DNA from: Companilactobacillus allii
GTDB taxonomy: Bacteria > Bacillota > Bacilli > Lactobacillales > Lactobacillaceae
Assembly (NCBI RefSeq): GCF_001971585.1
Contig: NZ_CP019323.1
Location: forward strand, 2,098,053-2,162,052
Length of the DNA: 64,000 nucleotides
Reading direction: 5' to 3'
Made by a program: the position numbers and the translations under genes. Below the pieces are notes generated by a model that worked only from the letters and a program-made list of their open reading frames with translations, searched no databases and had not been told where the DNA came from. Each line of letters starts with the position of its first letter. The stretch's first letter is position 1. Shown here one piece after another: positions 37,068-53,314 of the stretch.

Positions 37068-38492
37068 TTAATCTTCTATTTCATGTGTTTCACTAAGTTT
37101 CTTAAACCAAAAGGCACTCTTTTTAACGTAACGCTTTTGTGTTGGAAAATCGACAAAGAATAATCCATAACGCTTACTATAACCATTGGTCCATGAGAAT
37201 TGATCTTGTAGTGACCAAATGAAATATCCTTTAACATTGGCACCGTCTGAAATCGCATCAGCAATAGCACCAAAGTACTTCTTCAAGTAGTCAATTCGTT
37301 TAGGATCATCAATGATTGTTTCATCTGTGGCATTCTCTGGTAGTTCTTCTTTAAGACCAATCCCGTTCTCTGTTACATAAGTGGCTGGTACCAAAGGATA
37401 TTCATCATGAATCCTCATAAGGATATCATGCATCCCTTTGGGATAGATTGGCCAATCCCAATCAGTTGTTTCAACATCATCTGGTTTTTTCTCTTCACCA
37501 ATTCCATGGATTCGAGAAACTGAAGTTCCTTTAGCACCTGTTCCATTATGAACAGTCTCTGATGCACCATCGTAAGCGCGCAACCATTTACTAAAGTAAT
37601 TATTTACACCAACAAAATCAAGCTTATGGGCAGCCGCACTGATTTCTTTCATCTCTGAATCAGAATATTTAAACATAGGTTGATCATTAGCATCAAGAAT
37701 TTCTTTAACTAAATCAAGTGTTTCTTGATGATATTTTCCGGCTAGTGTTCCATCCAAATATAGTCTATTTTCAAACGCATCTTGTAATGCGGCAGCATGC
37801 TTGTCTTCTTTACTATCACTATATGGATAAACTGTCTGAAGTGCGTGAACGATTCCAATTTCACCGCCTAAATTCATGTCTTTATATGCATTAACAATTC
37901 TAGCATGGACAAGAATCTGATTGTGTTCTGCTTGGAAAGTCTTATCGAAACGGCCTTTTTCAGCAGGTGGGAATGTTCCAGAAGTATATTGTTGAATAGC
38001 CATTGATGTTGGTTCATTAATAGTGATCCAATGAGTAACCTCAGGGAATTCTTTGAAACAGTATTTGGCATAAGCTAGGAAGTCATCAAGCATTTCTTGA
38101 CTCAACCAGTCTCCAGCTTCATGTAATCTTTCTGGTGTATCAAAATGATGCAAGGTTACATAGGGAACAATATTATGTTTTTCACATGAGGCAAATAACT
38201 TATGATAATAAGCAACTCCACGTGGTTCTATTTTTCCAGCACCATCTGGGAATATACGTGACCAAGCAATAGAAACTCTAATAACTTGAACTCCATATTC
38301 CTGTGCTAGTGTTAAGTCTTCATCATAGCGATGATAAAAGTCAGCTGCAGGATCTGGACTGAATCTACCTTGTTTCTCTAAGAAATCATCCCAAAGAACA
38401 CGCCCCTTGCCATCTTCTTTAGTAGCACCCTCGACTTGATATGCGGCACTTGCGCCGCCCATTAGAAAATCTTTTGGTAATGTTTTACTCAT
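37068..38492 (-). CDS. lacG: 6-phospho-beta-galactosidase (GH1)
   Basis: This enzyme hydrolyses lactose-6-phosphate into galactose-6-phosphate and glucose. The 474 residues follow the LacG pattern from the start ([20 protein letters not shown]). The acid/base Glu is in [10 protein letters not shown], the nucleophile Glu in YVTENGIGL, and the phosphate-binding Ser/Lys/Tyr set in [15 protein letters not shown]. It is the last gene of lac operon 2. Since operon 1 has no hydrolase, LacG may serve both permeases. No tagatose-6-phosphate genes are in the window. Confidence 0.92.
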
Positions 38493-38528
38493 TTATATCC
38501 TCCTCAGTAAAGCGTTTTCACTAATTAA

Positions 38529-40283
38529 CTATATATGTTCTTTTACAAACTTCAAGGCCATATCAGGATCTCGTGTTAAAGCAATGTATTCCTTACCTGA
38601 CGTTGTGGCTAATTTAGCACCATACTTATCAGTTATTTTCTTAACATTTCCTTTCATACTATCCATTTGTGGAGCTAAAATGACCAAATCCATATCTTGA
38701 ATCATATTCATATCTTGACCATAAGCACGTGCAGCAGCGGATAATGGTAAATCACGATCTTTAGCAATTTTATTCAAAGCATTGGCTAAAATACCAGACG
38801 TTCCACCACCGGCACATATAACCATAACTGCAGTTTCTTTTGTAAATCCAGCATTTATTGATGCTGCATCATCAACTTTTTCTACTGTGGCACTAGCTCC
38901 AGAACTTGCTGTAGCCATGACCGTTCCATCAGCTGAAACTTCTACATCAGAATCATTATCATCATCAATAGCATTTTCTTCATCAGAATCAAGATTCAAA
39001 CCTACTTCTTTAGCTTTCTTTGCTTCTTCTTCAAGCATTTGACCATCGTAAACTCTCATGAATGGGAACCAGATGAAGACATCGATTACTAAACTCAATA
39101 ATACGAATACAAATGATAATGGAGCAAATCCAGTACTTATTAAAATACCAATTGGTGCTGGAATGACCCAAGGCATAACGTACATCATACCGTTCATACC
39201 CAGTGTGACAATAAAGAACTTGTACAAACAAATATTAACCATTGGTGTAAGGATAAATGGAATAAAGAATACAGGGTTCATAATAATTGGAGCACCAAAC
39301 AAAATTGGTTCGTTAACTGAGAATGCAACTGGAATAAATGAAGCTTTACCAATAGCTTTCAGTTGTTTTGATCTGGCAAGTAATAAGAACATAAATCCAA
39401 GAACAAAGGTTGATCCTGTACCACCCATGTTCATAACATAATCTTGTGTGTTTTGAGCAAGAATATGTGTGGCTTGTTGGCCAGCTTGGAATAACTTCAA
39501 GTTAGCTTCAGTATTTGTAATTTCAATAGCTGCAACGGCTGGGGCAACAATTGATGGTCCTTGAACACCTACGAACCAGAAGAAAGCCATAGCACCGGCA
39601 ATAATTGCAAGACCAATGTATGAATCACTAGCTGAAAAGACAGGTGCTAAAAGTGCAACGATCAATTCTGGCAAGTTCTTACCAGTTGTACTCATGAGTA
39701 AGAGTGAAAATGCCCAGAAAGCTGTAACTGATAGAGCCATAGGAATAACATCTTTAAAAGTCTGAGAGATATTCTGTGGTACCTGTGGAGGCATCTTGAT
39801 AGTTACATTATTTTTAATACAAACATAATATATATTAGGAACAATTAAACCTACAAGATATGATGCAATAAGTCCTTGTGTACCCATGTATGTAAGATCA
39901 GCGCCACCTTTGTTTTGAACAATAGCACAAATGATAAAGGCAATTTCAGAAGCCATAATAATTGAAACGGAATTCATCTGATTTGTCTTTGGTAAATCAA
40001 GATTCTTTGCATCAGTAAGGTTCTTAGCAGTTGTAGCAGTAACAAACAATGCTAGTAGACCCATCGAATAGTTATAAGCAATAAGTAAATTACTTTCGAT
40101 ATTTGATGGCCAATAAAAGCCCCAAGCATTTGGTAAGTACGTTACTAATAAGAATAATGACGAGAACAAGATGATAGGCATTGCAGCAATAAACCCATCA
40201 CGAATAGCAGAAACATAAATGTTGGCGGCAAATTTTTCAAATACCGGTCTCATTTTTTCAATCTTAGACGTTAAAACATCCAT
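38529..40283 (-). CDS. lacE: PTS lactose-family subunit IICB, copy 2
   Basis: A 584-residue paralogue of the IICB at 33777, with IIC landmarks FSVNEPILFGAPIIMNPVFF and a IIB Cys in VMVICAGGGTSGILANALNKI. The linker between the domains is unusual: about 60 residues with a strongly acidic stretch (DSDEENAIDDDNDSDVEV) absent from copy 1. ATG 40283 is the better start, behind AGGAGAT. It sits between lacF2 and lacG. Confidence 0.92.
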   Translation of the reverse strand: MDVLTSKIEKMRPVFEKFAANIYVSAIRDGFIAAMPIILFSSLFLLVTYLPNAWGFYWPSNIESNLLIAYNYSMGLLALFVTATTAKNLTDAKNLDLPKTNQMNSVSIIMASEIAFIICAIVQNKGGADLTYMGTQGLIASYLVGLIVPNIYYVCIKNNVTIKMPPQVPQNISQTFKDVIPMALSVTAFWAFSLLLMSTTGKNLPELIVALLAPVFSASDSYIGLAIIAGAMAFFWFVGVQGPSIVAPAVAAIEITNTEANLKLFQAGQQATHILAQNTQDYVMNMGGTGSTFVLGFMFLLLARSKQLKAIGKASFIPVAFSVNEPILFGAPIIMNPVFFIPFILTPMVNICLYKFFIVTLGMNGMMYVMPWVIPAPIGILISTGFAPLSFVFVLLSLVIDVFIWFPFMRVYDGQMLEEEAKKAKEVGLNLDSDEENAIDDDNDSDVEVSADGTVMATASSGASATVEKVDDAASINAGFTKETAVMVICAGGGTSGILANALNKIAKDRDLPLSAAARAYGQDMNMIQDMDLVILAPQMDSMKGNVKKITDKYGAKLATTSGKEYIALTRDPDMALKFVKEHI

Positions 40284-40298
40284 GATCACATCTCCTTT

Positions 40299-40652
40299 TT
40301 AATTATTTTTTATATCTAACTTTTCTTCAATTTTATTAATTCTTTCATACTCATCAATAAAGAATTCAACTTCATCTTTGAGCATCATCGTAGTCATTAA
40401 TGTATCTTGACCATGAACCATGATAAAAGTAACGTCCATGTCCATCCCGCCTGCTTCATTAGCAAGTAGTTTTGTTTGTTCATTATGAGCATCGACAATG
40501 GATTCGTTAGCAGATTCAACTAACTTCTTTGCTTCGTCTATTTGCCCCTCTTTTGCTTTATTCAAGGCATTGATCAAAGCTGATTTAGCATCTCCTGCAT
40601 ACGCAACAATAGCGAATCCTGTCATTGATATATCTTCTTTTGTAACTGTCAT
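40299..40652 (-). CDS. lacF: PTS lactose-family subunit IIA, copy 2
   Basis: A 117-residue IIA(Lac) protein nearly identical to copy 1 over most of its length, with the same MVHGQDTLMTTMMLKD active-site helix. It accepts phosphate from HPr and passes it to the IIB domain of the adjacent IICB. Because the copies are so alike, they may be interchangeable between the two permeases. Confidence 0.93.
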   Translation of the reverse strand: MTVTKEDISMTGFAIVAYAGDAKSALINALNKAKEGQIDEAKKLVESANESIVDAHNEQTKLLANEAGGMDMDVTFIMVHGQDTLMTTMMLKDEVEFFIDEYERINKIEEKLDIKNN

Positions 40653-40682
40653 AAAACTACATCTCCCTGATTATTTTCATTT

Positions 40683-41537
40683 TTAATCTTTCGTATCTTC
40701 TTGAATTAATCTTTGAATATGAATAACAAAGTACAATAGCTCATTACTTCCTAATTTGTTTCCCAATCTTTCTTGTAGTTCATCATAGATTTGTTTTGCA
40801 ATCTCGAATGATTCTGGATATGACTCCTGCATTTCCTTTTCAAATTTTGGACTCAAGACATCGTCACCATCATCAGGCTTATCTAGCCGGCCGGCTAAGT
40901 ATTGCAGGTGAATCATGAATCTATCGAAGTAATTCCCATTGGAACCTAACCTAAATATTTTATTATCACTAAGTATCTTTTTGACTATGTCGTTAATATC
41001 TTGGCTTTCATCTTGTTTCAACTGTCCTTCTTCAGGTTCTTCACCTTTAGAATTAATGAAGTGAAGTGCTAGTGCTCTGATTTCTGATATTGGAAATTTA
41101 ATTCCAAGATTATTTTGTATTACTTCCAACGCATACCTAGCAATTGCATACTCTGTGGGATATTGAGCCTCCATGTCAGGAATTAGGTTTTCCTTATATG
41201 TTCCTTTGTTAAATCGTTTCGTTGATTCTAATATGTGGTCACTCAATGTAATGTACGCATAATCTAAAACGCTATAATCAAACTTCTTATTACCATAATC
41301 AATAATTTCGTAAGTAGTTGTAACAATATCTATTGGAATATCCTTCAATAGAAAATATAAATTCTCTTGTGATCCTTTGGTATTCAGATAAAATATTTTT
41401 TCGATTTTATCTGTGTTAACTTTTGAACCCTTATGTTTGTTAAAAGCAATTCCATTACCTTTGATGATAGCTTGGCGATGATCTCCTATATCAGCTAAAA
41501 CGCTGTTGTTATTAAAAACTTGTAATATATTTACCAC
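40683..41537 (-). CDS. lacT: BglG/LacT-family transcription antiterminator, copy 2
   Basis: A 284-residue antiterminator with a CAT RNA-binding domain (ILQVFNNNSVLADIGDHRQAIIKGNG) and two PRDs. It begins at GTG 41537 behind GGAGGGGG. It is the first gene of the lacT2-lacF2-lacE2-lacG operon and lies behind two consecutive antiterminator/terminator leaders. Confidence 0.92.
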   Translation of the reverse strand: MVNILQVFNNNSVLADIGDHRQAIIKGNGIAFNKHKGSKVNTDKIEKIFYLNTKGSQENLYFLLKDIPIDIVTTTYEIIDYGNKKFDYSVLDYAYITLSDHILESTKRFNKGTYKENLIPDMEAQYPTEYAIARYALEVIQNNLGIKFPISEIRALALHFINSKGEEPEEGQLKQDESQDINDIVKKILSDNKIFRLGSNGNYFDRFMIHLQYLAGRLDKPDDGDDVLSPKFEKEMQESYPESFEIAKQIYDELQERLGNKLGSNELLYFVIHIQRLIQEDTKD

Positions 41538-41576
41538 TTTTATTTCCCCCTCCCTTTTTTATATGTGCATTCTCTG

Positions 41577-41657
41577 CACAAAAAAGAGACCACTGGTAAC
41601 ATGGTAATAATTCAAACAACCATGACACCAAGTGATCTCGCCTAATTTAATAGTAAC
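41577..41657 (-). promoter_or_regulatory. Antiterminator/terminator leader of lac operon 2, proximal copy
   Basis: The conserved block at 41657-41634 on the minus strand (GTTACTATTAAATTAGGCGA and four further bases) opens into a terminator. Its stem is GAGATCACTTGG pairing with CCAGTGGTCTC, followed by TTTTTT. Confidence 0.8.
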
Positions 41658-41672
41658 AACTCACCGTCTCAT

Positions 41673-41740
41673 AAAAAAAGAGACCACCAGCATTTCGATA
41701 AATCGAAGTGCAAAGTGATCTCGCCTAATTTAATAGTAAC
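41673..41740 (-). promoter_or_regulatory. Antiterminator/terminator leader of lac operon 2, distal copy
   Basis: A second module with the same block (41740-41717) and a different hairpin, GAGATCACTTTGCACTTCGA pairing with the segment that ends GGTGGTCTC, then TTTTTTT. Transcripts from the promoter meet this terminator first, then the proximal one. Confidence 0.8.
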
Positions 41741-41777
41741 AATTCACTAGAGCTATTCATTTCTTTCAACAGCTCCT

Positions 41778-41815
41778 AGTATAGGACAAACCATCCCTTT
41801 TGTAAACGGTTACAA
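41778..41815 (-). promoter_or_regulatory. Promoter and cre site of lac operon 2
   Basis: A -35 TTTACA (41806-41801) and -10 TATACT (41783-41778) with 17-base spacing, overlapped by TTGTAACCGTTTACAA (41800-41815), which fits the cre consensus. The arrangement is the same as in lac operon 1. Confidence 0.85.
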
Positions 41816-41834
41816 TTGAATTCTTTCTATTTGT

Positions 41835-43151
41835 TTAGCATAACTCAGTAATAAAACAGTCATAATAAATCTCCATCATCATCTGCCAATCACTGAATTG
41901 AAGCCATTCATCGCCTTTATGAGCGATTCCTTTTTGGCCCGGAAATGAAGGACCAAATGCAACAATATTGGGTAATGCTCTAGCATATGTAGCACCAGTT
42001 GTCGTAACAGGAGTTCCATCGAGTCCAGTATCCTCTTCATATATATTGGAGAATTGCTTGATATATTCTTGATTCTTCTCACTAAGCTTGGATTGGAAAC
42101 TACGATTAACCGTAATTGACATCCCATCCTTCAATTGAGATTTCAGTTGACTTAATACTTTATCTTCAGTGATTGAAATAGGATAACGCATTGAAATGTT
42201 AAACGACAATTTGTTGTTCTTTTTTTCAATTTTATATAGTGACAGTTGCAAACTACCAGATTCTTCATCCGCAAAATCTAATCCCAGATTCTTACCATCT
42301 GTTTGCTTAGAGATTTTGGCCGATAACCACATGAAGAAATCTCCAGTTTGACCTGCTAAACCTACCCAATTATCAGCAATCTTTGGTAACACATTATCCG
42401 CCATATCAGGAGCGTTGCTTGGTGCCTTTTTACCAGTAAATTCCTTCCAAGTCCCATCACTAAGTTTGAATTTAGCATAATCTGGAATATAGCTACGATC
42501 AAATTGACCTGATATAGATTCAATCTGATCGATTGATCCATCTGATATATCTTGTGAAATCGTCAAATCAACTAAACCACGTTCCCCATAAACAATGGGA
42601 AATTTACAATCTGGTGTATATCCGGCATAAGGAGGTTTTTGTTCATTTAAATAATAAGGGATATCACGACTACCAGACTCCTCATCCGTACCAAACATAA
42701 TACGTACTCGCTTATTTAACTTAATTCCTTGAAGCTTGATTAAATATAATGCAAATAATGTCGACATTAATGGTCCCTTATTATCTAATACACCACGTCC
42801 GTACATCATATTATCAACCTTAGTCAATTTGAATGGCGGATAAGACCAATCATCCTCAACATCGACCACGTCTGTATGTCCCAATACACCAAAATATTCT
42901 TCAGCATTCTCTGGACCATATTCAGCCCAACCGACACAATCAGATACACTACCAGTTCTAAATCCTAGTTTTTCAGATAGATTCAACATATAATCCAAAG
43001 CATTTTTTGGACCAATACCAAATGGTGCCTTAAAGGTCTTATTTCCGTTTACACTAGGAATCTTAATCAATCCATCTAAATATTCTAGAAATTCACTTTT
43101 ATGTTCATCAAATAATTCTTGAAAATCAGGTCTAACTTCATTCATTTCCAT
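41835..43151 (-). CDS. M20-family dipeptidase/peptidase
   Basis: A zinc-dependent M20 peptidase of 438 residues related to PepV/Sapep dipeptidases. Metal ligands are visible in LGHTDVVDVED, GRGVLDNKGP, FGTDEESGSRD and GIAHKGDEW, so it looks active. It is the last gene of the glycosylasparaginase operon, 17 bases behind the M42 gene. No terminator follows it, and the lac operon 2 promoter begins almost at once. A role in trimming imported or transported peptides is likely. Confidence 0.87.
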   Translation of the reverse strand: MEMNEVRPDFQELFDEHKSEFLEYLDGLIKIPSVNGNKTFKAPFGIGPKNALDYMLNLSEKLGFRTGSVSDCVGWAEYGPENAEEYFGVLGHTDVVDVEDDWSYPPFKLTKVDNMMYGRGVLDNKGPLMSTLFALYLIKLQGIKLNKRVRIMFGTDEESGSRDIPYYLNEQKPPYAGYTPDCKFPIVYGERGLVDLTISQDISDGSIDQIESISGQFDRSYIPDYAKFKLSDGTWKEFTGKKAPSNAPDMADNVLPKIADNWVGLAGQTGDFFMWLSAKISKQTDGKNLGLDFADEESGSLQLSLYKIEKKNNKLSFNISMRYPISITEDKVLSQLKSQLKDGMSITVNRSFQSKLSEKNQEYIKQFSNIYEEDTGLDGTPVTTTGATYARALPNIVAFGPSFPGQKGIAHKGDEWLQFSDWQMMMEIYYDCFITELC

Positions 43152-43168
43152 ATTAAATTTTCTACCCC

Positions 43169-44281
43169 TTAGTACTTATCTACTAAAGCTTCTCTAGTAG
43201 TCTCCTTAAATAAGGATACATCTTTTTCAGATAAAGTTTTACAAAATTCAGTTAACAATGTAATCGTTTGCTTATAGTCATCCAAATTAACCATTAATCT
43301 AGGTGAATGCATATATCTCGTTGGCATTGACACTGTCATAGTCGGAATACCATCCATCGCCTTATGAATATTACATGCATCAGTTCCACCAACAGTCATG
43401 AAATCATATCGAATATCTAATTTTTGTTCTGTAGCCAATCGTTTCATACGATACAGTAATCCCTTATTGGCAATAGTCAAGGAATCCAAAACTGCCAAAA
43501 CTACCCCCTTACCAAGATTATCGACATTTCTATCGTCTAATGGCGTATCTTGCGCAGTGGTAACATCCATTGCAATAGCTAGATCTGGTTTAATTTTATG
43601 AACCGCAGAACGAGCTCCCCTAATACCGACTTCCTCTTGAGTAGAACCCGTAAAATACAGCGTGGCCTCATGATCCATCACAGAAGTTCGTTTCATCACT
43701 TCCAATTCTGCTCCTAAACTAAAACGATCATCCCATGCTTTTCCTAACAGATAATTAGGATTATTCATTTGTCGAACTTTTATATTTGGTGTAATCATAT
43801 TGCCAATTTCAATTCCCATTTGTTCTATTTCAAATTTATTATCAACGCCCATATCAAGGAACATGGACATAGGTTTCATAACTTTATTTTTTACTTCGTC
43901 TGATAATCCATGTGGAGCACGACTGCCTATAACACCAATATATTTTTTATTATCATTGGTTGTGACCGTCATTTCTTGAGCAGGCATAACATGCCCCCAC
44001 CAGCCTCCAATTGGAAGCAATTTTAGAAATCCTTGTTCCGTTATCTGCCTTACTTCAAACCCCACTTCATCCATATGTGCGGATAACATAACTTTTGGAC
44101 CATTCTTGTTTATACCGTTTTGTTTTAAAATTATCGACCCTAAATTATCGTAATAAATATTATCAACATAGGGTTGAGCATAGCTATGAACTATTCGACT
44201 TACTTCCCGTTCTCTTCCACCAATACCATCTGCTTCACTGAGATTTCGTAGTAATTCAAGATCAATTGCTTCATTACTCAT
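43169..44281 (-). CDS. M42-family aminopeptidase, intact
   Basis: A dinuclear-metal aminopeptidase of the FrvX/TET/PepA-glutamyl type, 370 residues from ATG 44281. The longer frame upstream overlaps the preceding gene. All expected residues are present: His in LSAHMDEVGF, Asp in GKAWDDRFS, catalytic and ligand Glu in TQEEVGIRGA, Asp in AIAMDVT, and His in PTRYMHSP. It lies directly behind a degenerate paralogue and may form mixed shells with it, since M42 enzymes assemble as dodecamers. Confidence 0.9.
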   Translation of the reverse strand: MSNEAIDLELLRNLSEADGIGGREREVSRIVHSYAQPYVDNIYYDNLGSIILKQNGINKNGPKVMLSAHMDEVGFEVRQITEQGFLKLLPIGGWWGHVMPAQEMTVTTNDNKKYIGVIGSRAPHGLSDEVKNKVMKPMSMFLDMGVDNKFEIEQMGIEIGNMITPNIKVRQMNNPNYLLGKAWDDRFSLGAELEVMKRTSVMDHEATLYFTGSTQEEVGIRGARSAVHKIKPDLAIAMDVTTAQDTPLDDRNVDNLGKGVVLAVLDSLTIANKGLLYRMKRLATEQKLDIRYDFMTVGGTDACNIHKAMDGIPTMTVSMPTRYMHSPRLMVNLDDYKQTITLLTEFCKTLSEKDVSLFKETTREALVDKY

Positions 44282-44294
44282 ATTTAGCACCAAC

Positions 44295-45359
44295 CTATCG
44301 ATTCTCTGATTTAAATAACTCAATTTTATTATTATCAAGCTGTTCGATAAATTTAATTAAAGCTTCCCTGGCTGAACCGAAATCTTCTTCAGAAATCACG
44401 GATTTTGGAGTATTAAAATTTCTTACAGGAATATTTATAAAAAGTGATGGACATCCTGTACGTAACTTGTTCACCCAACCAGCCTCTGAATCTTCAAGTG
44501 AATAATAATACTGATATTTAATTTCATTATTATCACATAGTTTTTTTAATTCACTAATAAGTAACCTATTAGGAAGAACGGTCTTGGCATAATAAGTTAA
44601 CAATAGTCCGCCACCAAGAATTCCTATTTTATCTTCTGAGTTCAATTGATAATCAAAAGATTTATTTGATTCCAAAATAATTGCTAAATCAGGAGAAACC
44701 TTATTCGTCGCTGTTTGGATTCCACGAAGTCCAACTTGTTCTTGAACTGTACATCCAACATACAAATCGAATGGTAATTCTATATTATCTAAAGCCCTCA
44801 GTAATTCGATTCCAATAACTGGAGCATATCTCCCATTGATATTCCTACACATGATAGTCCCAGAACTTGTTCTAATAAATTCAGATGAGAAAGATATTGT
44901 ATCCCCGATTTGAAGATTTGTCTCTGATTGATTTTTATCCATAAACCCTAGATCAATAATCAAATTATTCTTTTCATCTAAGACTGTCTCATCTTCTCTT
45001 ATAGATAATATTGTTCCAGGAAAAACATGCCTTTTTTCATTAAATGCTTCAACACTTGCGCCAAGTAATGAATTCTTTGGTATATTTCCAAGCATTAGCG
45101 CTCCAATAAGTCCATTATCATAGAACTTATTAATTATAAATCCAATTTCATCCATATGGCCAGATACCATAACTCTTTTGGCATTGACGTTTTTACTCTT
45201 CTTTACCGCATAAATAGAACCAAGATTATCATAAATAATATCATCAGATAATTCCTCATAATATTTTCTAAGCATTTCTGATACTAATCGCTCGTTACCA
45301 GCAACTCCATGAACACTTGAAATTTCTTCAAATAAATTAATTGACTCATTAGATAACAT
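44295..45359 (-). CDS. M42-family protein lacking most metal ligands
   Basis: A 354-residue M42 paralogue from ATG 45359. Only the first metal His (SGHMDEIGF) is kept. The other ligand positions have changed: the Asp pair of WDDR is INGR, the ligand Glu of QEEVG is Gln (QEQVG), the Asp of MDVT is Glu (LESN), and the His of YMHSP is Asn (FNTP). It is full length with no stop or frameshift, so it looks like a retained non-peptidase. A regulatory or scaffold role for the active M42 next door, or a changed activity, are options. Confidence 0.85.
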   Translation of the reverse strand: MLSNESINLFEEISSVHGVAGNERLVSEMLRKYYEELSDDIIYDNLGSIYAVKKSKNVNAKRVMVSGHMDEIGFIINKFYDNGLIGALMLGNIPKNSLLGASVEAFNEKRHVFPGTILSIREDETVLDEKNNLIIDLGFMDKNQSETNLQIGDTISFSSEFIRTSSGTIMCRNINGRYAPVIGIELLRALDNIELPFDLYVGCTVQEQVGLRGIQTATNKVSPDLAIILESNKSFDYQLNSEDKIGILGGGLLLTYYAKTVLPNRLLISELKKLCDNNEIKYQYYYSLEDSEAGWVNKLRTGCPSLFINIPVRNFNTPKSVISEEDFGSAREALIKFIEQLDNNKIELFKSENR

Positions 45360-45375
45360 TTTTAAAGTCCCCAAA

Positions 45376-45897
45376 TTAATAGATTTTTATTTCTTTAAAT
45401 TCATTTAAATCGTCACCATTTACCTTTTTACGACAAACATCAATAATATCTTGTAATGATTCACTTAGACCCGTTCCACCTTTCCGTGGCATTTTTACAA
45501 TATCAACCTTGTTACTATATTCTTTGATTACATCTGAACACTCTTTGGACATGGCCGCAACCACAGGAATATTTGTTTTTTCAGAAACAATTGCTCCAGT
45601 CTGAGCACACATTTCTGCATACTCAACGTAATGAAATGCTGGTCCACAAATAACGGCATCTGGCTTCAGCTTATTGATCATAGCTGCTAACTTAAGACTA
45701 ACTTCATTTTTATTTTTCATATAGTACTCATCACCACAAAATAGCGTAGTTGTTATTTTTTCATCTTTATTAAGATATTTATCAAACATATCAGCAGCAC
45801 CTAGAGCAATCTTTTTCCCACCTAACGGCAAATCACCATGTTCCGTACCACCAAGACCGGCTTGGATTTGGTCTAAAACAATTAATATTTCCATCAT
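45376..45897 (-). CDS. Stand-alone GrdB N-terminal-domain-like protein
   Basis: A 173-residue protein resembling the N-terminal part of the glycine/sarcosine/betaine reductase component B. The matching pieces are IQAGLGGTEHGDLPL, TLFCGDEYY, and DAVICGPAFHYVEYAEMCAQ, then NIPVVAAMS. The selenocysteine half of GrdB is absent and no glycine reductase genes are near. It may bind a small amino compound. It is embedded in the glycosylasparaginase operon, 16 bases ahead of the degenerate M42 gene. I choose the ATG at 45897; GTG at 45906 is possible. Confidence 0.7.
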   Translation of the reverse strand: MMEILIVLDQIQAGLGGTEHGDLPLGGKKIALGAADMFDKYLNKDEKITTTLFCGDEYYMKNKNEVSLKLAAMINKLKPDAVICGPAFHYVEYAEMCAQTGAIVSEKTNIPVVAAMSKECSDVIKEYSNKVDIVKMPRKGGTGLSESLQDIIDVCRKKVNGDDLNEFKEIKIY

Positions 45898-45918
45898 TTT
45901 CACCACACCTATATATTT

Positions 45919-47268
45919 TTAAATAAAATTAAGATCATCATTTGTTAAATCATCAAATGAAATATTTTCAACTTTTTCCATTTTGGCATCATGTTCTTCC
46001 TTAAGATATTGCTTATCTAATGTCTTGATAAATGGATAGTAAATTAGGCATCCCAAAATAAGTAAAAGTATTTGATAAACAGATGCCCAAAGGCTTCCTG
46101 TAGATAGATATCCCGAGAATCCTATGGGTGTTGTCCATGGTAAAGCAACACCATTGGTATATGGAATAATGCCTATTTTTGTAACTAGGGTAGAAAGTAA
46201 TAGATTAATTAACGGAACCAAATTAAATGGAACAAGCAAAATCGGATTCAAAACTATGGGTAGACCAAATATTATTGGTTCATTAATTCCGAAGAAACCC
46301 GGTACTATTGCTAATTTCCCCAATTGTTTAATTCGCTCCGATTTACAAACTAGCAACATTACAATGACTAATGATAATGTACTTCCTCCGCCACCAAAAT
46401 TTGTAAAGAAATTAGAAAATGGATCGGTAAATATATTTGGTAATTTATGTCCATTCTGAAATGCATCAAGATTTTCCATTGTTAAAACTTTTGTAATTGG
46501 AGCAAATACTGAGTTAGCTACAGCCGGTCCATTGATTCCGAAAAACCAAAAGATTGTACATGCAAAACCATAAATAATTTGAGCCATTAAGGTATTTCCG
46601 GCTCCTTTAAGTGGTACTTGTAAAATTTGATATATAAAATTATGTAATGTTTCGAAACCTGTCATTCCAAATAAAATACGAATAAAGAAAAATACCATAA
46701 TAACAAATGCACTTGGAATCAAAGCTTCAAAAGATTGTGCTACGGCTGGAGGAACTCCATCAGGCATCTTAATTGTCCATCCTCTTTTGTAGACAAAATC
46801 ATAAATAATAACGGCAATAAATGCGACTATTAAACCTAAAAAAATTCCATTTGTACCAAGATATTCCATATCCAAAACACCATCAACGGGTTCCTTCAAA
46901 CCATCAACAATCATCTTTGTAGGTGTAAGAATTAAAAATGCTACAAGAGCTGATGCAGCTGCTTGAATGGCATCCGATTTGATTTGTCTTGCATAGGCAT
47001 ATGCAGTACTAAAGCAAGTAAAAAATCCGACAGTATTAAATACTGCTCTGGATACATTAGTAAACCAGCTTTCCCAACCATTTCCAAAATAATTTGCCCA
47101 AAATTCTGACCAACCTGGAATAGGAAAATTAGCAATTAAAAGAAAAATAGATGCAACGATAATCAATGGCGTGGTTATTAAGAAACCATCACGAATGGCA
47201 ATTAAGATTCTGTTACTACCCAATTTTGTTGCAGCTGGCATTAAAACTTTTTCTAATTTATTAAACAT
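45919..47268 (-). CDS. PTS lactose/cellobiose family subunit IIC in the glycosylasparaginase operon
   Basis: A 449-residue membrane IIC with the family landmarks FFGINGPAVANSVFAP, NEPIIFGLPIVLNPILLVPF and NGVALPWTTPIGF. No IIA or IIB is fused or adjacent, so it must borrow them. Its neighbours (glycosylasparaginase, UTRA regulator, aminopeptidases) suggest a substrate with both sugar and amino-acid parts such as N-acetylglucosaminyl-asparagine. That is an inference. Confidence 0.88.
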   Translation of the reverse strand: MFNKLEKVLMPAATKLGSNRILIAIRDGFLITTPLIIVASIFLLIANFPIPGWSEFWANYFGNGWESWFTNVSRAVFNTVGFFTCFSTAYAYARQIKSDAIQAAASALVAFLILTPTKMIVDGLKEPVDGVLDMEYLGTNGIFLGLIVAFIAVIIYDFVYKRGWTIKMPDGVPPAVAQSFEALIPSAFVIMVFFFIRILFGMTGFETLHNFIYQILQVPLKGAGNTLMAQIIYGFACTIFWFFGINGPAVANSVFAPITKVLTMENLDAFQNGHKLPNIFTDPFSNFFTNFGGGGSTLSLVIVMLLVCKSERIKQLGKLAIVPGFFGINEPIIFGLPIVLNPILLVPFNLVPLINLLLSTLVTKIGIIPYTNGVALPWTTPIGFSGYLSTGSLWASVYQILLLILGCLIYYPFIKTLDKQYLKEEHDAKMEKVENISFDDLTNDDLNFI

Positions 47269-47294
47269 ATCTCATCCTCCTAAAATGGGACTAT

Positions 47295-48011
47295 TTAATT
47301 CTTTCTATATAAAATATTATGAAATGTATATTTATCTGAACGATAGTACGAATTATCATACAATATTGGATATCCATCTACGGAATAAGTAATCGTATGT
47401 GCCAAAAACGCTGGCAACTTATCTTCAACTTCCAATTTTTTACTTACTTCTGCGCTAAGCTGGATAGCCTCCAACTCTTGGCTTGCATATCCAATAGAAT
47501 TACTCAATTCTATGAGGTTATATAAAGATTCAGAGGCCTGTTTTTCATTCAATGTAGGTAACAATGTTTCCCTTAAATATAAATTTTCAAGAGTCATTGG
47601 ATTGGAATCGATAAGTCTCAATCTTTCAATTCTAAAGACCATCTCATCTTCCTTTAGTTGTAGCCCCCTTCCGATTTCTTTTGGATAATTCGAAATTATT
47701 TCAAAACTTAATACTTTCGTGTTTACTTTTAAATTCAATTTTTTAGCAACTTCTGTAAATCCTGATAATCCCGCACTTCCACTTGAAATTTTTTGATTAT
47801 CAGCCAAAACATATGTTCCTTTATTTCTCTCTTTAACAACCACTTGTTCTTTTTCTAAAGTCTCTATCGCTTTACGTACAGTTAAACGACTGGTACTAAA
47901 TTGATCTGCAAGATCTATTTCTGAAGGTAATTTTTGATGTGAGCTATAAATTCTATTATCAATATCCTTTTTGATTTGGTTTGCTATTTCTATATATAAA
48001 TAATTTTGCAT
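47295..48011 (-). CDS. GntR/HutC-family regulator with UTRA domain (NagR-like)
   Basis: A 238-residue regulator. An N-terminal winged helix (about 1-68, LPSEIDLADQFSTSRLTVRKAIETLE) is followed by a UTRA ligand domain (about 90-235, EDEMVFRIERLRL and ENLYLRETLLP). The operators upstream of its operon resemble the NagR/YvoA site, so a GlcNAc-type phosphosugar effector is plausible. It is the second gene of the operon and probably controls it and itself. Confidence 0.87.
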   Translation of the reverse strand: MQNYLYIEIANQIKKDIDNRIYSSHQKLPSEIDLADQFSTSRLTVRKAIETLEKEQVVVKERNKGTYVLADNQKISSGSAGLSGFTEVAKKLNLKVNTKVLSFEIISNYPKEIGRGLQLKEDEMVFRIERLRLIDSNPMTLENLYLRETLLPTLNEKQASESLYNLIELSNSIGYASQELEAIQLSAEVSKKLEVEDKLPAFLAHTITYSVDGYPILYDNSYYRSDKYTFHNILYRKN

Positions 48012-48049
48012 AAAACTACTATTCCCTCAATTTATTAATATTATATTTT

Positions 48050-49006
48050 CTAATCAATCGGTGCTTTAATTCTCAATTCGTACGCATCAAGCCATTTCTT
48101 TGTAATAGGTTCAATTACAGTGGTCCCATCTTCACCAGGATTTGCCATCATAATTTTAGGAGCATTTTTATTATCACCAGCTGCAAATGTGAATTCCACA
48201 TTGGTGGCAACTCCCCATTCACCTTTGTTATTCAATGCAACTAATGAAAATTCTCCCACTTTTCCATATCTCTTCTTTAATTTATCTATAAATGGATAAA
48301 CGGCTTTATCACAAGCAGCTTGAGGAGTGAGTCCTGTTCCCATTAGTCGAACAATCTCATAACACAAACATCCCTTCATGATATCCTCACCAAGACCAGT
48401 AGCTGCAGCACCACCTATCTCGCTATCACAATAAAATCCGTCACCTACAAGTGCAGAATCCCCGGTCCGACCGGGTTTTTTCATAAATAATCCAGATGTT
48501 GAAGTCCCCACTGCCATTGAGCATTTAGGATCTAGGCTGATCATCCCCACAGTATCGTGACCATCATATGGACTCAAATTCTCTTGTGCAATCTCACGTT
48601 TACGTTTTTCCCAAATCTTTTTAGCTCGGGCTGTCAACATGCTTTTACGCTCAAATCCATTCAATACTGCATACTCAGATGCACCTGACCCGACCAAAAA
48701 GCTATTGAAATGTTCTTTACTTAACTTACGTGAAACTGAAATGGGGTTCTTGATATCACTGATGCCTGCGACAGCACCAACTGCAAAAGTATCACCATCC
48801 ATAAATGCTGAATCCATCTCTACCAAACCATTCGCATTGGGGAGGCCACCATATCCAACAGATTTAAAAAACGGATAATCCTCGACTTCCTTAATGGCGG
48901 TTTCAACAGCATCACTACTATTTCCACCATTCTTCATTAATTCCATACCCTTACTTAAACCTTCATATGCCATTCTCCAAGTTCCGATCATAGCAAACGT
49001 CATCAT
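48050..49006 (-). CDS. N4-(beta-N-acetylglucosaminyl)-L-asparaginase (glycosylasparaginase)
   Basis: An Ntn hydrolase of 318 residues that cleaves the bond between GlcNAc and asparagine in N-glycan remnants. It matures by self-cleavage between Asp151 and Thr152 in GHDTVGMISLDP, exposing the nucleophile Thr. The beta-chain pattern STSGLFMKKPGRTGDSALVGDGFY, then GGAAATGLGE, agrees with the bacterial enzymes. There is no signal peptide, so it acts in the cytoplasm on imported substrate. Plain isoaspartyl peptidase activity is the main alternative. First gene of the seven-gene operon, behind AGGTGATA. Confidence 0.87.
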   Translation of the reverse strand: MMTFAMIGTWRMAYEGLSKGMELMKNGGNSSDAVETAIKEVEDYPFFKSVGYGGLPNANGLVEMDSAFMDGDTFAVGAVAGISDIKNPISVSRKLSKEHFNSFLVGSGASEYAVLNGFERKSMLTARAKKIWEKRKREIAQENLSPYDGHDTVGMISLDPKCSMAVGTSTSGLFMKKPGRTGDSALVGDGFYCDSEIGGAAATGLGEDIMKGCLCYEIVRLMGTGLTPQAACDKAVYPFIDKLKKRYGKVGEFSLVALNNKGEWGVATNVEFTFAAGDNKNAPKIMMANPGEDGTTVIEPITKKWLDAYELRIKAPID

Positions 49007-49040
49007 TTATCACCTCATATTCAAAATTTATTGAAATCAA

Positions 49041-49108
49041 ATTGTATATACCAATATTATTTATGCAATCGATTTCAAACAAAGTATATTCACTATTGTA
49101 TATACAAT
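49041..49108 (-). promoter_or_regulatory. Promoter with two NagR-like operators
   Basis: On the minus strand ATTGGTATATACAAT (49055-49041) closely resembles the NagR/YvoA consensus. A perfect palindrome ATTGTATATACAAT lies at 49095-49108. A promoter with TTGTTT (49082-49077) and TAATAT (49059-49054), 17 bases apart, lies between them, so one operator covers the start site and the other the upstream face. Binding by the GntR/UTRA protein of the operon is inferred. Confidence 0.75.
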
Positions 49109-49175
49109 CAAGTATTATTTAAGATTTTTTTTAATCTAATAAAATTAATATCCATAATTTTTTGTAAAAATACCT

Positions 49176-49190
49176 ATTTCCGAACTTTTT
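49176..49190 (+). promoter_or_regulatory. Possible PurR half-box upstream of guaD
   Basis: A CCGAAC core (49180-49185) with AT-rich flanks resembles one half of a Firmicutes PurR box. It lies about 70 bases before guaD. No clear second half at the usual spacing was found, so the call is weak. Confidence 0.3.
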
Positions 49191-49253
49191 TAGCTTTATT
49201 TAATAAATCATTCATGTTAATCTAATTACAACAAAAAAATAAGGAAGTGTTAG

Positions 49254-50591
49254 ATTATCACCTATCAAATTGTTTTTGAAGGAGCTATTTTTTCTTCAGT
49301 ATCGTTTGACAAGGCGGATTTTTCACCCAAAGTTCTCACTTGTATTGATCAATCAGGTTTGATTGATCGCATAATATCTGTTGATGAACCGGATTATAAA
49401 TCGGTCAAGCAAACTGCTGAAAATCTAAATATTCTTCATCCTATACCAAAAGGCAGTTATCTCTTGCCCGGATTCATAGATTTACATGTCCATGCACCAC
49501 AATGGCCTCAAGCTGGTCTTGCCTTGGACAAACCACTAGATGAGTGGTTGCAAAAATATACTTTCCCACTTGAAGTAAAATACAAAGATTTGAATTTTGC
49601 TAAAGAAAACTATACAGGTTTAGTAAATGAACTTTTAGAAAATGGAACAACGACTGTTTTATACTTTGGATCAATTCATACAGACGCAAATTTGGTCTTA
49701 GCTGATATTTGTGCTGAAGCTGGTCAACGTGCCTTCATTGGGAAAGTTGCAATGGACAATCCCACACAAACTCCAGAGTATTATCGTGATTCATCTTCAA
49801 AAGAATCATTGGAGCAAACCGAACTATTTATAAATCGGCTATTAGACAAACAAAAGAAAACAGGTGCAGAATTAACCCCTGTAATTACACCTAGATTTGT
49901 TCCCAGCTGTACAGACGAAACACTTGCTGGACTAGGTAATTTAGCAAAAAAATATGACCTCCCTATTCAATCACACTGTAGTGAAAGTATTTGGGAAGAT
50001 CATTATGCAATTGAACGTTTCAATTTAAGAGATACGCAAGTTTTAGATAAATTCCATTTATTAACTAGTAAATCAATTATGGCACATGCAACTCAACTGA
50101 ATGATTCAGATTTGGAATTATTCAAACAAAGAAATACCGCCATTGCTCATTGCCCTATTTCAAATGTTTACTTTGGTAATTCTGTATTACCTGTTAAACA
50201 TATTCATGAAAAAAATATCAACATGGGAATGGGTACTGATATATCCGGAGGTTTCTCCCCAAGCATCTATCGAAATATTCAACAATCTGTTATGTCTTCA
50301 CAAATGTTACAAGATAATAGTCATAGTGATTCAAGAATCTCTGCCACAAATGCCTTTTATCTTGCAACAATTGGAGGAGCAAAAGCTCTTCATATTAAAA
50401 CTGGACAGATATCCGTTGGATATAAAGCTGACTTTCAAATTGTCACTGATCAATACTTCAACTCAATGTCTAATGAACCACAGGATGTTTTTGAAAGATT
50501 AATCTATCACACGACAAAATCAGAAATTAACGAAGTTTATGTTTCTGGAAAACAAGTAATCAATCGAGGAGAGCATCATGGAAGAAAATAA
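49254..50591 (+). CDS. guaD: Guanine deaminase, apparent ATT start
   Basis: This amidohydrolase converts guanine to xanthine. Zinc ligands are visible in PGFIDLHVHAPQW, QSHCSES, MAHATQL and MGTDISGG. The first recognised start codon in frame is TTG 49361 minus two (49359), but it has no ribosome site and cuts off the N-terminal beta-domain. The frame continues upstream with typical family sequence (YQIVFEGAIFSS) to an in-frame TAG at 49251. Between them the only candidates are ATT 49254 and ATC 49257, six to nine bases behind AAGGAAG. I therefore place the start at ATT, giving 445 residues. It overlaps the purine permease gene. Confidence 0.85.
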   Translation: MITYQIVFEGAIFSSVSFDKADFSPKVLTCIDQSGLIDRIISVDEPDYKSVKQTAENLNILHPIPKGSYLLPGFIDLHVHAPQWPQAGLALDKPLDEWLQKYTFPLEVKYKDLNFAKENYTGLVNELLENGTTTVLYFGSIHTDANLVLADICAEAGQRAFIGKVAMDNPTQTPEYYRDSSSKESLEQTELFINRLLDKQKKTGAELTPVITPRFVPSCTDETLAGLGNLAKKYDLPIQSHCSESIWEDHYAIERFNLRDTQVLDKFHLLTSKSIMAHATQLNDSDLELFKQRNTAIAHCPISNVYFGNSVLPVKHIHEKNINMGMGTDISGGFSPSIYRNIQQSVMSSQMLQDNSHSDSRISATNAFYLATIGGAKALHIKTGQISVGYKADFQIVTDQYFNSMSNEPQDVFERLIYHTTKSEINEVYVSGKQVINRGEHHGRK

Positions 50592-51921
50592 AAGTAGTTT
50601 ATTGATTGGACCTGACGATAAGGTTGGATTTGGTGAAGCCGGGTTCTTAGGCTTGCAACATGTTTTAGCAATGGATATTTACGTTCCACCAATTATCCTA
50701 GCTGGTATGATGGCTATGGGAATTGGAGACCAAATGAGTTTATTACAATCCACATTTTTGGCCGCTGGTATTGGAACTATTTTACAAACATATGTCTTCA
50801 TGAAAATGCCCGTATCACAAGGTCCTTCATTCGTACCGCTTGGTGCGGCTGCTGGTGTTGTCTTAGCATCAGGTGGTATCAAAGGAAATGGTATGGCAAC
50901 ACTTATTGGATCCTTATTAATCGGTGCAATAATTCTGATTATCCTTGGAGCTACTGGTGTTTTCCAGAAGATTATTAGTAAATTAGTACCTGCCTTAGTT
51001 GGTGGCACAATAATCACATGTGTGGGTCTTTCATTGATACCATCTGCACTTAATGACAATATTTTTGAAGCATCCGGAAATATTAATAATAATATTATAC
51101 TTGCTTCAATCACTGCACTAACTCTTCTGATTTCAGTCGGAATAAGTATGAGATTCCCTAAGGTTCGTAGAATTTTTAGAACCGGATCAATTATTTTGGC
51201 TCTTGCAGTAGGAACGATTGTTTCAAGTCTTATGGGATTATTTAATTGGAAAACCGTTGCTGATGCTGCATGGTTCAGTCTTCCTTCAGGAACTGCTTTC
51301 AATTATGGAATTTCATTTTCACCATCAGCCATCATCACCTTCATCATCATCTATGCCGTTATCACTACTGAAACAACTGGTACTTGGTTTGCCATGGGTG
51401 CTGTTACAAATCACGAAATTAGTAAAAAACAGTGGAATATGGGAATCATTGGTGAAGGATTCAGTTGTTTAGTTGCTGCCCTACTTGGTACAACACCTGT
51501 CACAGGTTATTCTACAAACGCTGGTGTTATTTCCATCACAGGAGTTGCAAGTAAACGTGTATTCTTATTCGCAGGAATTTGGTTCACGATTCTTGGTTTC
51601 TTCAGTAAGCTATCAGCCTTTCTAGCTGCTATTCCAGCACCAGTTATTGGTGGAGTCTTTGCCATTATCTGTGTAACTATTATGTTGAATGGATTAAATG
51701 TTATCCGTGCACTGAATACTACTGATAGAGATATCTATATTATTGGCTTACCAATAATTCTTACACTTGCACTAGTCTTACTTCCAGCAAGTGTTACAAA
51801 ACAAGCACCTCAAATTTTACAATATTTATTAGGCTCACCAATTGCAGCCGCCGCTATTGCAGCGATTGTTTTGAATCTATTAATGCCAAAAGTTAAAACT
51901 TTAACTTCTGATGCTGCCTAA
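50578..51921 (+). CDS. NCS2-family purine permease (xanthine/guanine type)
   Basis: A nucleobase:cation symporter of 447 residues with about 14 hydrophobic segments. The NCS2 landmarks are QGPSFVPLGAAAGVVLASGG and, in the substrate region, ITTETTGTWFAMGAVTNHE. Its ATG lies inside the end of guaD, so the two are translated together. Import of guanine or xanthine for the deaminase is the likely purpose. Confidence 0.9.
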   Translation: MEENKSSLLIGPDDKVGFGEAGFLGLQHVLAMDIYVPPIILAGMMAMGIGDQMSLLQSTFLAAGIGTILQTYVFMKMPVSQGPSFVPLGAAAGVVLASGGIKGNGMATLIGSLLIGAIILIILGATGVFQKIISKLVPALVGGTIITCVGLSLIPSALNDNIFEASGNINNNIILASITALTLLISVGISMRFPKVRRIFRTGSIILALAVGTIVSSLMGLFNWKTVADAAWFSLPSGTAFNYGISFSPSAIITFIIIYAVITTETTGTWFAMGAVTNHEISKKQWNMGIIGEGFSCLVAALLGTTPVTGYSTNAGVISITGVASKRVFLFAGIWFTILGFFSKLSAFLAAIPAPVIGGVFAIICVTIMLNGLNVIRALNTTDRDIYIIGLPIILTLALVLLPASVTKQAPQILQYLLGSPIAAAAIAAIVLNLLMPKVKTLTSDAA

Positions 51922-52098: not shown

Positions 52099-53259
52099 TT
52101 AGAAATAATCTCTAAGTTGCGGTTTCTCAGTCACAAGTATTTTGCTCAATGTATCAATAGATACTGTAGAACCTTGAACATATCCATAATGTGCCAATGA
52201 ATTAAGTGATCTAATGCCAAACATAGCTTTTGTTAAAGTTTGAATATCCAACTTCACACTACTAGGTTCACTAGTCTTTTCAAATTTAACATTACCGTTC
52301 TTAATAGATAACGACCAAGTCTGATTATTCCACTCTAACGTATCACTAACATCAATAATTACTGGATCCAGATTATGTTTGATAAATGGATATTTTTTGA
52401 TAAAGCTCTTTAAGTTAACAATTCTTGCTGACATATATGGAATTGTTGAAACCTTGGCAACATATGGCTCATCTAACAAATCAGTTTTCACTTCAGAATC
52501 AGGTGACTCATATATAAAGTTGTTGAACATAGATTGGTGTTTAACAATAAAGTTAGCCAATGCTTTATAACTATTGGGATCATTAGTTACCCATTCTTGA
52601 ATTATCAAATTATCATTTTCGTTTGAATAGAATAAATATCCATCTAACTCATCGGTATCGTTGTAATAAAGTGCGGCGAACCAATCAGAATGCTTATAGG
52701 CCATGTGATCCCACCACCAATCCTCACGGATAACTCCTCCAAGAATATTGTGATTATTATAAAGTATCCTGGCGGACTTGGGAACTTCGTTCAATCTCAC
52801 TCGTTTGATGTGTCCTGAGTTTGGTGACTTGATACGTGGCCATTTGGAACTTGGTATATCGGTAATCACATGGTTAAATACCTGTTCATAACCAAACTTT
52901 CTGTAATACTTAAACGAGAATGGTGCCAAATAAGACAATGTAACATTTTCATTGTACATATCCGTCAATGCCTGATTCAATAATGTACCTGCTCCACCTC
53001 TACCGGCAAATTCTGGAGCACTCATTACATCACCAATACCATTCATATGATAAGTCACACCATGAAAGTTTACTGTGAATGGAATACTAAGCAATCCACT
53101 ACCTAATTTATCACCATTCATAATCCCATACGCTAATGAATGATCAAATCTATCACTTAAAGCATTTTTCTTTTGTTCATTATCAGGTCGATTGAAGGAA
53201 TAAAGATACAACTCGTAAAATTTCTCAAAATCGTTTTTTTCTAAGCGATAATTTGTCAT
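52099..53259 (-). CDS. Eis-like GNAT N-acetyltransferase
   Basis: A 386-residue protein with an N-terminal GNAT fold (about 1-150; GDVMSAPEFAGRGGAGTLLNQAL is the acetyl-CoA motif), a second GNAT-like half and a C-terminal SCP2-type domain. This is the Eis layout. Eis proteins acetylate amines in various substrates, including aminoglycosides in mycobacteria. The substrate here is unknown. It appears to be a single-gene unit. Confidence 0.87.
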   Translation of the reverse strand: MTNYRLEKNDFEKFYELYLYSFNRPDNEQKKNALSDRFDHSLAYGIMNGDKLGSGLLSIPFTVNFHGVTYHMNGIGDVMSAPEFAGRGGAGTLLNQALTDMYNENVTLSYLAPFSFKYYRKFGYEQVFNHVITDIPSSKWPRIKSPNSGHIKRVRLNEVPKSARILYNNHNILGGVIREDWWWDHMAYKHSDWFAALYYNDTDELDGYLFYSNENDNLIIQEWVTNDPNSYKALANFIVKHQSMFNNFIYESPDSEVKTDLLDEPYVAKVSTIPYMSARIVNLKSFIKKYPFIKHNLDPVIIDVSDTLEWNNQTWSLSIKNGNVKFEKTSEPSSVKLDIQTLTKAMFGIRSLNSLAHYGYVQGSTVSIDTLSKILVTEKPQLRDYF

Positions 53260-53277
53260 TTTCCCACTCCTATAAAA

Positions 53278-53312
53278 AAGACACTATTCAATTGAGAATA
53301 GTATCTTTATTT
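53278..53312 (-). terminator. Terminator of the IIC-mupG unit
   Basis: AAGACACTATTC (53278-53289) pairs with GAATAGTATCTT (53296-53307) and has T-runs on both sides. Confidence 0.88.
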
Positions 53313-53314
53313 TT

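Follow-up and report, generated by a model that had tools for sequence, protein, structure and literature searches.

A putative GlcNAc-asparagine operon of Companilactobacillus allii with an apparently exchanged cassette of PTS, GrdB-like and M42 genes

We examined a 64,000-nucleotide stretch of the Companilactobacillus allii genome (assembly GCF_001971585.1, contig NZ_CP019323.1, positions 2,098,053 to 2,162,052 of the forward strand; hereafter the window), in which seven open reading frames (ORFs), all on the minus strand, form one tight operon in the region 41835–49108, as read from the ORF list and the sequence. The first gene encodes a cytoplasmic glycosylasparaginase of the AsnA2/EgaG type (48050–49006; PF01112, 217 bits). 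It is followed by genes for a GntR/HutC-UTRA regulator of the LSA1692 subfamily (47295–48011; PF07702 and PF00392; NF041547, 332 bits against a cut-off of 275), an enzyme IIC (IIC) of the lactose/cellobiose family of the phosphotransferase system (PTS) (45919–47268; PF02378; TIGR00410, 418 against 236), a 172-amino-acid GrdB-like protein without the selenocysteine half (45376–45894; PF07355; NF041545, 233 against 175), a protein of M42 fold with a changed metal site that is predicted to be inactive (M42a; 44295–45359; PF05343), an M42 aminopeptidase that keeps all ligands checked (M42b; 43169–44281; PF05343, 306 bits), and an M20 dipeptidase of the Sapep/PepV type that keeps its metal ligands (41835–43151; PF01546; TIGR01887, 354 against 208). 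The Pfam families of all seven proteins exceeded their curated cut-offs; the curated NCBIfam names are "LSA1692 subfamily" for NF041547 and "GrdB-related putative oxidoreductase" (GrdB_like_no_Se) for NF041545. Read from the sequence in gene order, the intergenic gaps are 38, 26, 24, 16, 13 and 17 bases. The third shrinks to 12 if the GrdB-like gene starts at the GTG at 45906, to which the ORF listing extends, rather than at the ATG that gives 45376–45894; the start thus possibly lies a few codons upstream. A first-pass annotation of this DNA had described seven genes in one minus-strand operon with gaps of about 13–38 bases, which agrees with the ORFs, families and gaps found; its two M42 proteins both belong to that family, but M42a is degenerate, with four of five metal ligands changed.

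The first enzyme is of the glycosylasparaginase type by sequence, as the first-pass annotation had it. Its nearest solved structure is the Elizabethkingia glycosylasparaginase (193 bits), and the best isoaspartyl peptidase scores 65 bits less (128 bits). D151, T152, R180, D183, T203 and G204 were invariant in 68/68 aligned glycosylasparaginase rows, and W10 and H150 were each kept in 67/68. We take HDT to be the autoproteolysis site, R180 and D183 to bind the alpha groups of asparagine, and T203 and G204 to be the oxyanion positions. In the M20 protein, seven ligand or catalytic positions were invariant in 73/73 rows, and an eighth position examined, R322, varies. AsnA2 of Lacticaseibacillus casei (L. 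casei) cleaves N-acetylglucosaminyl-asparagine (GlcNAc-Asn) at 20.91 µmol per mg per min and its 6-fucosyl form at 0.26, about 80 times slower (PMC6960285). Fucose at C6 is thus tolerated by that enzyme, so a phosphate at C6 is conceivable as well. Elsewhere in the C. allii genome lie nagA (282 bits, cut-off 226) and a NagB-like gene that falls just below its cut-off (236.1 against 236.9 bits); one TAA was reported in the stretch matched by the latter and is probably the gene's own stop.

The genes of the operon keep company beyond chance. Among 251 Lactobacillaceae genomes, the GrdB-like family exceeded its cut-off in 24 and glycosylasparaginase was detected at E ≤ 1e-30 in 58; all 24 genomes with a GrdB-like protein also held a glycosylasparaginase (24/24; hypergeometric P about 6e-18, uncorrected for kinship and with the lists matched by eye). 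The distribution is patchy, with both families in 4/12 genomes of the same genus among those listed. A scan of genome contigs with the single GrdB-like sequence found no relatives; an alignment query found 168, of which the 80 most similar to the window were kept. Seventy-eight loci had a GrdB ORF and were counted, L146 and L172 (2/80) being left out because none was called there. An IIC gene lay within 60 bases of the GrdB-like gene in 71/78 loci and a glycosylasparaginase gene on the same strand within 6 kb in 65/78; both M42 genes were present on the same strand within 6 kb in 19/78, and 11 of those 19 also had glycosylasparaginase. Carriers were found in Enterococcus, Vagococcus, Companilactobacillus, Lacticaseibacillus, Clostridium, Clostridioides difficile, Erysipelotrichaceae and Lachnospiraceae. 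A core set of glycosylasparaginase, LSA1692-type GntR regulator, IIC, GrdB-like protein and M20 dipeptidase recurs in Lactobacillaceae, Enterococcus and Clostridia. The glycosylasparaginase gene is split into two ORFs in L064, L084, L097 and L169, and in L097 (Enterococcus innesii) M42a is split too, which may reflect decay of the operon in some lineages or sequencing errors.

Comparison with Companilactobacillus hulinensis (L078) set apart a cassette, IIC-GrdB-M42a-M42b (43148–47295, minus strand), where that species has GrdB-IIC. DNA identity was 82% at 36001–43147, 79% at 47296–51915 and 86% at 52100–56704, but between the breaks in synteny at 43147 and 47296 only the two IIC genes matched (65%). 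These breaks coincide with the start of the M20 gene and the end of the GntR gene. The window glycosylasparaginase and M20 proteins are 93% and 90% identical to those of C. hulinensis, whereas IIC groups with Latilactobacillus and, more widely, Enterococcus. Latilactobacillus has the same two alternatives (L065 and L066 versus L119), flanked by ORFs of like size. We read this pattern as a transport block that appears to have been exchanged in place as one unit, at gene boundaries. Such an exchange is a natural experiment that provides two operons differing only in the transport block.

The trees were 'quick' IQ-TREE runs without bootstrap. Besides species-named genomes they took only L065, L066 and L080 (and L084 in the IIC tree); rows shorter than 280 (glycosylasparaginase), 400 (IIC), 330 (M20), 150 (GrdB) and 200 (GntR) amino acids were dropped, and L112, whose contig ends after M42a, was given the M42 label by hand. 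The label 'M42-linked' changed 3 times on the IIC tree (80 rows, 23 labelled), 5 times on the GrdB tree (82, 23), 7 times on the glycosylasparaginase tree (71, 15), 10 times on the M20 tree (73, 18) and 6 times on the GntR tree (32, 12). On each of the five trees its clustering exceeded that in shuffles, and the trees do not share the same rows; the contrast is therefore one of degree. The M42 pair occurred mostly in one IIC clade that spans Lactobacillaceae, Enterococcaceae, Clostridiaceae and Erysipelotrichaceae; L176 has the pair outside this clade, and L145 lies inside it without the pair in the stretch examined. A plasmid search matched short pieces in 222 records, of which no single one covered 80% of the cassette; the 15 rows listed were mostly IIC pieces, and one related operon lay on a 592-kb L. 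curvatus record. In L104, L105, L111 and L114 the M42-type cassette and a nearby glycosylasparaginase gene form distinct units; between the two lies a gene for about 530–574 amino acids on the opposite strand.

The two M42 proteins differ sharply in their metal sites. M42b kept the five metal ligands and the catalytic Glu in 23/23 sequences, whereas M42a had lost at least one ligand or catalytic residue in 22/23 full-length copies, the window copy included, with changes that differ among lineages; only L114 (Stoquefichus) has an intact M42a. Each set of 23 includes L062 and L098, which are of the same species, and two M42a fragments from L097 were excluded. In the window M42a, the metal site shows D to N, E to Q, D to E and H to N changes, and the catalytic Glu is kept; the assignment of metal-ligand roles to these positions is our assumption from M42 enzymes in general. 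The gene is nevertheless an open reading frame and its model has the M42 fold (predicted local distance difference test, pLDDT, 90), with the YtoP-YsdC model 9a5r as the best structure match (template modelling score, TM, 0.93). M42b is closest in sequence to 1vhe (297 bits), which we take to be YsdC. M42a is predicted to be catalytically inactive. In passages of PMC10090944, crosslinking in Bacillus subtilis supports a YtoP-YsdC heteromer of M42 paralogues, so a mixed complex of a dead M42a and a live M42b is plausible, and by this analogy we consider it a reasonable guess. If the repeatedly decayed M42a has been kept as a partner, it would offer a clear example of a pseudo-peptidase retained in that role.

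The operon has IIC alone; IIA and IIB are absent from its genes, and companion loci L097–L103 likewise have no recognised IIB. Two stand-alone genes in the window may supply trans partners: a lactose-family IIA (59749–60084, minus; PF02255, 122 bits) and a lactose-family IIB (60191–60499, minus; TIGR00853, 81 bits, below the cut-off of 110). That they serve the operon's IIC is an assumption. L057 illustrates a complete PTS set for such an operon, with two kinds of IIA, together with IIB, IIC, GrdB-like, M20 and glycosylasparaginase genes, all in one locus.

The GrdB-like protein covers positions 3–164 of the 347 in the GRDB profile, i.e., the N-terminal half; the selenocysteine half is missing, and none of ten proteins scanned was GrdE, so the marks of the GrdB selenoprotein are absent. 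Its gene adjoins IIC at least as regularly as it lies near glycosylasparaginase (71/78 within 60 bases; 65/78 within 6 kb), and we read the protein as a putative PTS partner rather than part of a reductase. Distant relatives (162–164 bits, below the cut-off) lie in IIA-GrdB-IIB-IIC-GH1 stretches (L058–L061; Pfam families checked in L059 only), with no glycosylasparaginase within the 20 kb examined. In the phylum search with NF041545, 115/398 genomes matched at E 0.001 and two passed the cut-off, one of them the window genome. Most of the matches listed were ORFs of 350–390 amino acids; judged by length and the sizes of their neighbours, these matches of some 350 residues are probably true GrdB, with the ORF ending at the selenocysteine codon. 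The AlphaFold2 model of the GrdB-like protein had a pLDDT of 96; fifty listed structure matches (mainly receiver, small-GTPase and Rossmann-like folds, query TM 0.26–0.48) were not used for function.

Taken together, we consider it probable that the operon imports GlcNAc-Asn, and with it probably short peptides carrying GlcNAc-Asn, through a PTS of the lactose family, and cleaves them intracellularly, with a dead M42a beside M42b and an exchanged cassette. In this scheme, IIC would work with IIB and IIA encoded elsewhere in the genome to import the glyco-amino acid and phosphorylate it at C6. M42b, with M42a, and the M20 dipeptidase would trim flanking residues to leave an asparagine with free ends, and glycosylasparaginase would cut the amide to yield Asp and 1-amino-GlcNAc-6-P, which would decompose to ammonia and GlcNAc-6-P for NagA and NagB. 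M42a would be a dead subunit assembling with M42b, like the paralogues YtoP and YsdC, and IIC-GrdB-M42a-M42b would act as a transport-and-trimming cassette exchanged as a block, in which the GrdB-like protein serves the PTS and has no part in a reductase. Of this picture, the computations show the genes present, their conserved residues, the exchange of the cassette and the conservation of the operator palindrome, whereas the substrate, its phosphorylation, the sequence of steps, repression, the hetero-oligomer and what the GrdB-like protein does are inferred. GlcNAc-Asn is a remnant of N-glycoproteins from the host and from food, and using it has a bearing on colonisation of the gut.

A bolder version, which we put forward only tentatively, is that the cassette is a 'glycopeptide PTS'. 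Its permease would import GlcNAc-peptides and deliver them, now phosphorylated, to a mixed complex of M42 proteins. There the dead subunit, replacing some of the active sites, would make room for a bulky glycopeptide, and the GrdB-like protein would be a binding partner on the PTS side. If the cassette does import glycopeptides, PTS uptake would extend past sugars to glycosylated peptides.

Several observations weigh against the proposed pathway or parts of it. Without IIA and IIB in the operon, phosphorylation in trans is an assumption. The D to E change in M42a is mild by sequence. The model of the GrdB-like protein had no match at E 1e-3 in a search of PDB structures, and its counterpart in Enterococcus faecalis OG1RF is a pseudogene according to passages of PMC11160706, so the protein is possibly not needed. 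PepV is dispensable for 6'FN-Asn in L. casei (PMC6960285). In the sugar pocket of NagR, the nearest solved relative of the regulator, three residues are replaced: among 47 regulator homologues (which include repeat copies of some species) A224 has become Asp in 47/47, R211 Thr, Ser or Ala, and E222 Leu or Phe. Finally, the M42 pair was found with no glycosylasparaginase within 6 kb in 8/78 GrdB loci, which indicates that the cassette may also serve another substrate; of these eight, L104 and L105 have a glycosylasparaginase gene about 7.5 kb away, and the stretches of L115 and L130 end early.

The strongest alternative, which we regard as possible but unlikely, is that GlcNAc-Asn alone is the substrate, as in the ega locus of E. 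faecalis, and that the M42 pair merely came along with the IIC-GrdB cassette and does general peptide work. The core indeed works without the pair, since in 54/78 GrdB loci glycosylasparaginase occurs within 6 kb while M42 genes do not; against this, the pair follows mostly one IIC clade (3 label changes, compared with 7 on the glycosylasparaginase tree), a pattern that suggests coupling of the pair to the import substrate of that IIC. Rather improbable, in our judgement, is a cassette that imports another glycosylated or acylated amino compound, with glycosylasparaginase as an independent second branch of the operon. L122, L128 and L166 have the cassette without glycosylasparaginase in the stretch examined, and the IIA-GrdB-IIB-IIC-GH1 stretches likewise place a more distant GrdB-like protein in other company, but where the cassette was seen in Lactobacillaceae (four stretches: the window, L062, L065 and L066) it stands in one run with glycosylasparaginase and M20.

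The regulator bears on a further alternative, namely that the operon belongs to the NagR/GlcNAc regulon, as NagR/YvoA is its nearest solved structure (98.6 bits) and most of the phosphate-binding residues are kept. The roles of the NagR residues are taken from passages of PMC4333415. Among the regulator homologues, F89, R133, R135, E145, S165, S226 and Y228 were kept in 47/47, T90 in 42/47 (Ser in the other five), and position 167 was Tyr in 17/47 and Phe in 30/47; the window regulator has all five phosphate-site residues (T90, R133, R135, S165 and Y167), as a NagR-like phosphosugar sensor would. With R211, E222 and A224 replaced and Y167 often Phe, the effector is possibly not GlcNAc-6-P, and a phosphosugar-type effector other than plain GlcNAc-6-P would fit these residues; our guess is that the new Asp at position 224 reads the asparagine. 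The protein also falls in its own subfamily, NF041547, and the next best NCBIfam model is a trehalose repressor (135 bits, below the cut-off).

Upstream of the operon, the perfect palindrome TTGTATATACAA (candidate operator 1, 49096–49107) lies in the spacer of a promoter-like TTGATT-17-TATACT (49083–49111, minus; a consensus match, with 29 such sites in the region against 40 expected from shuffles), and a second candidate operator, TTGGTATATACAA, has one exact match (49042–49054, minus). With up to two mismatches, operator 2 was found 8 times in the window against 4.6 expected. Such mismatch-tolerant counts are near chance, so the case for the operators rests on exactness and conservation. 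The motif GTATATAC occurred within 200 bases upstream of the GntR or glycosylasparaginase gene in 19/28 GntR-bearing loci of species-named genomes and was absent there in 9; its expectation, from its own frequency in those loci, is 0.036 per 400 bases. The broader pattern TTGNNTATACAA had 18 strand-wise matches in the genome (13 on a reversed control), of which the one at the operon promoter alone reads TTGTATATACAA, and TTGTATATACAA had no second exact copy in the genome. This sequence equals the TreR box of Bacillus licheniformis published in PMC11356801; for NagR, passages of PMC4333415 give another palindrome, GTGGTCTAGACCAC. No dre-type operator like GTGGTCTAGACCAC was found at the operon promoter, and the NagR/YvoA-like operators of the first-pass annotation are therefore not upheld. 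With TTGTATATACAA single among the TTGNNTATACAA matches (no genome-wide search for NagR-type sites was made), membership of the NagR regulon appears very unlikely. In the proposed pathway, the GntR protein would instead repress the operon through TTGTATATACAA and be released by the phosphorylated sugar intermediate.

That the asparaginase is an isoaspartyl peptidase in an operon for damaged peptides is hardly credible: M20 and M42 peptidases do adjoin it and its only NCBIfam match is a beta-aspartyl-peptidase model, but at 111 bits against a cut-off of 567, while glycosylasparaginases are its closest solved relatives, W10, T152, R180, D183, T203 and G204 are present, and a sugar PTS with a phosphosugar-type regulator is ill-suited to such a role.

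Downstream, the operon is followed by another PTS unit, of the lactose type, which includes a gene for a LacT-like antiterminator. It is the second of two consecutive units at 33777–41537 (the first recognised by eye), with LacT-like genes at 35916–36791 and 40683–41537, IICB-like genes at 33777–35534 and 38529–40289, and a GH1-like gene, also judged by eye, at 37068–38492. Upstream of a LacT-like gene, at 41600–41740, lie two near-identical repeats, gttactattaaattaggcgagatcact, with a hairpin-like stretch and a run of T after each copy; by sequence they resemble antiterminator/terminator elements in tandem, and comparable stretches occur in L078. On the other side, divergent genes at 49359–51921 resemble, by eye, an amidohydrolase of the guanine deaminase type and a nucleobase permease, the amidohydrolase-like gene starting about 350 bases from the operon. 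A transposase-like ORF of 556 amino acids, also recognised by eye, lies at 7311–8981, and neither an Rfam match nor a tRNA was found in the window.

Among known systems, the glycine/sarcosine/betaine reductase GrdB shares with the GrdB-like protein only the PF07355 N-terminal half. The YtoP-YsdC pair (PMC10090944; 9a5r) has the fold closest to M42a, and the passages of that paper name no link to a PTS. The alf-2 operon of L. casei (PMC6960285) has in common with the operon here AsnA2, a PepV-type M20 protein, a GntR regulator and an intracellular route, but it has the MFS permease AlfH, the fucosidase AlfC, the kinase SugK and AsdA in place of the PTS, GrdB-like and M42 genes; AlfC and AlfH are not among the operon genes of C. 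allii. The legend to Fig. 7 of Becerra 2020 (PMC6960285), by itself, gives clusters with asnA2, pepV, GntR and PTS genes in L. sakei, L. curvatus, L. gasseri and others. For L. sakei 23K, passages of PMC3146418 identify LSA1689 as M20, LSA1690 as IIC, LSA1692 as GntR and LSA1693 as asnA2, all shared with the operon; no M42 gene is among the tags shown there, LSA1691 falling outside those passages. The L. curvatus record CP117684 (L207) has the order glycosylasparaginase, GntR, GrdB-like, IIC and dipeptidase, i.e., the GrdB-IIC type without the M42 pair.

The first-pass annotation had called the combination with M42- and GrdB-like proteins new. The glycosylasparaginase-type enzyme and the likeness to ega support its GlcNAc-Asn pathway, which is probably right, but its core has already been described (ega; Becerra 2020), and novelty can hold for the M42 part only. 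That part seems unreported so far; among the matches listed, we found no report in the open-licence literature of an M42 pair in a glycosylasparaginase/PTS locus. By its title, Combret 2024 ties use of GlcNAc-Asn dependent on the ega locus to E. faecalis infection. In passages of PMC11160706, this locus comprises EgaG, a lactose/cellobiose EIIB and EIIC, a putative oxidoreductase, a GntR regulator and a dipeptidase; we take the putative oxidoreductase to be GrdB-like because the passage cites a GrdB paper. Both loci thus have glycosylasparaginase, a lactose/cellobiose EIIC, a GrdB-like protein, a GntR regulator and a dipeptidase, and the ega-type gene set lies here in one locus. As far as those passages go, ega has an EIIB, a promoter of its own for the regulator and dipeptidase, and no M42 gene named, whereas the C. 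allii operon has no IIB within the locus and carries M42a and M42b.

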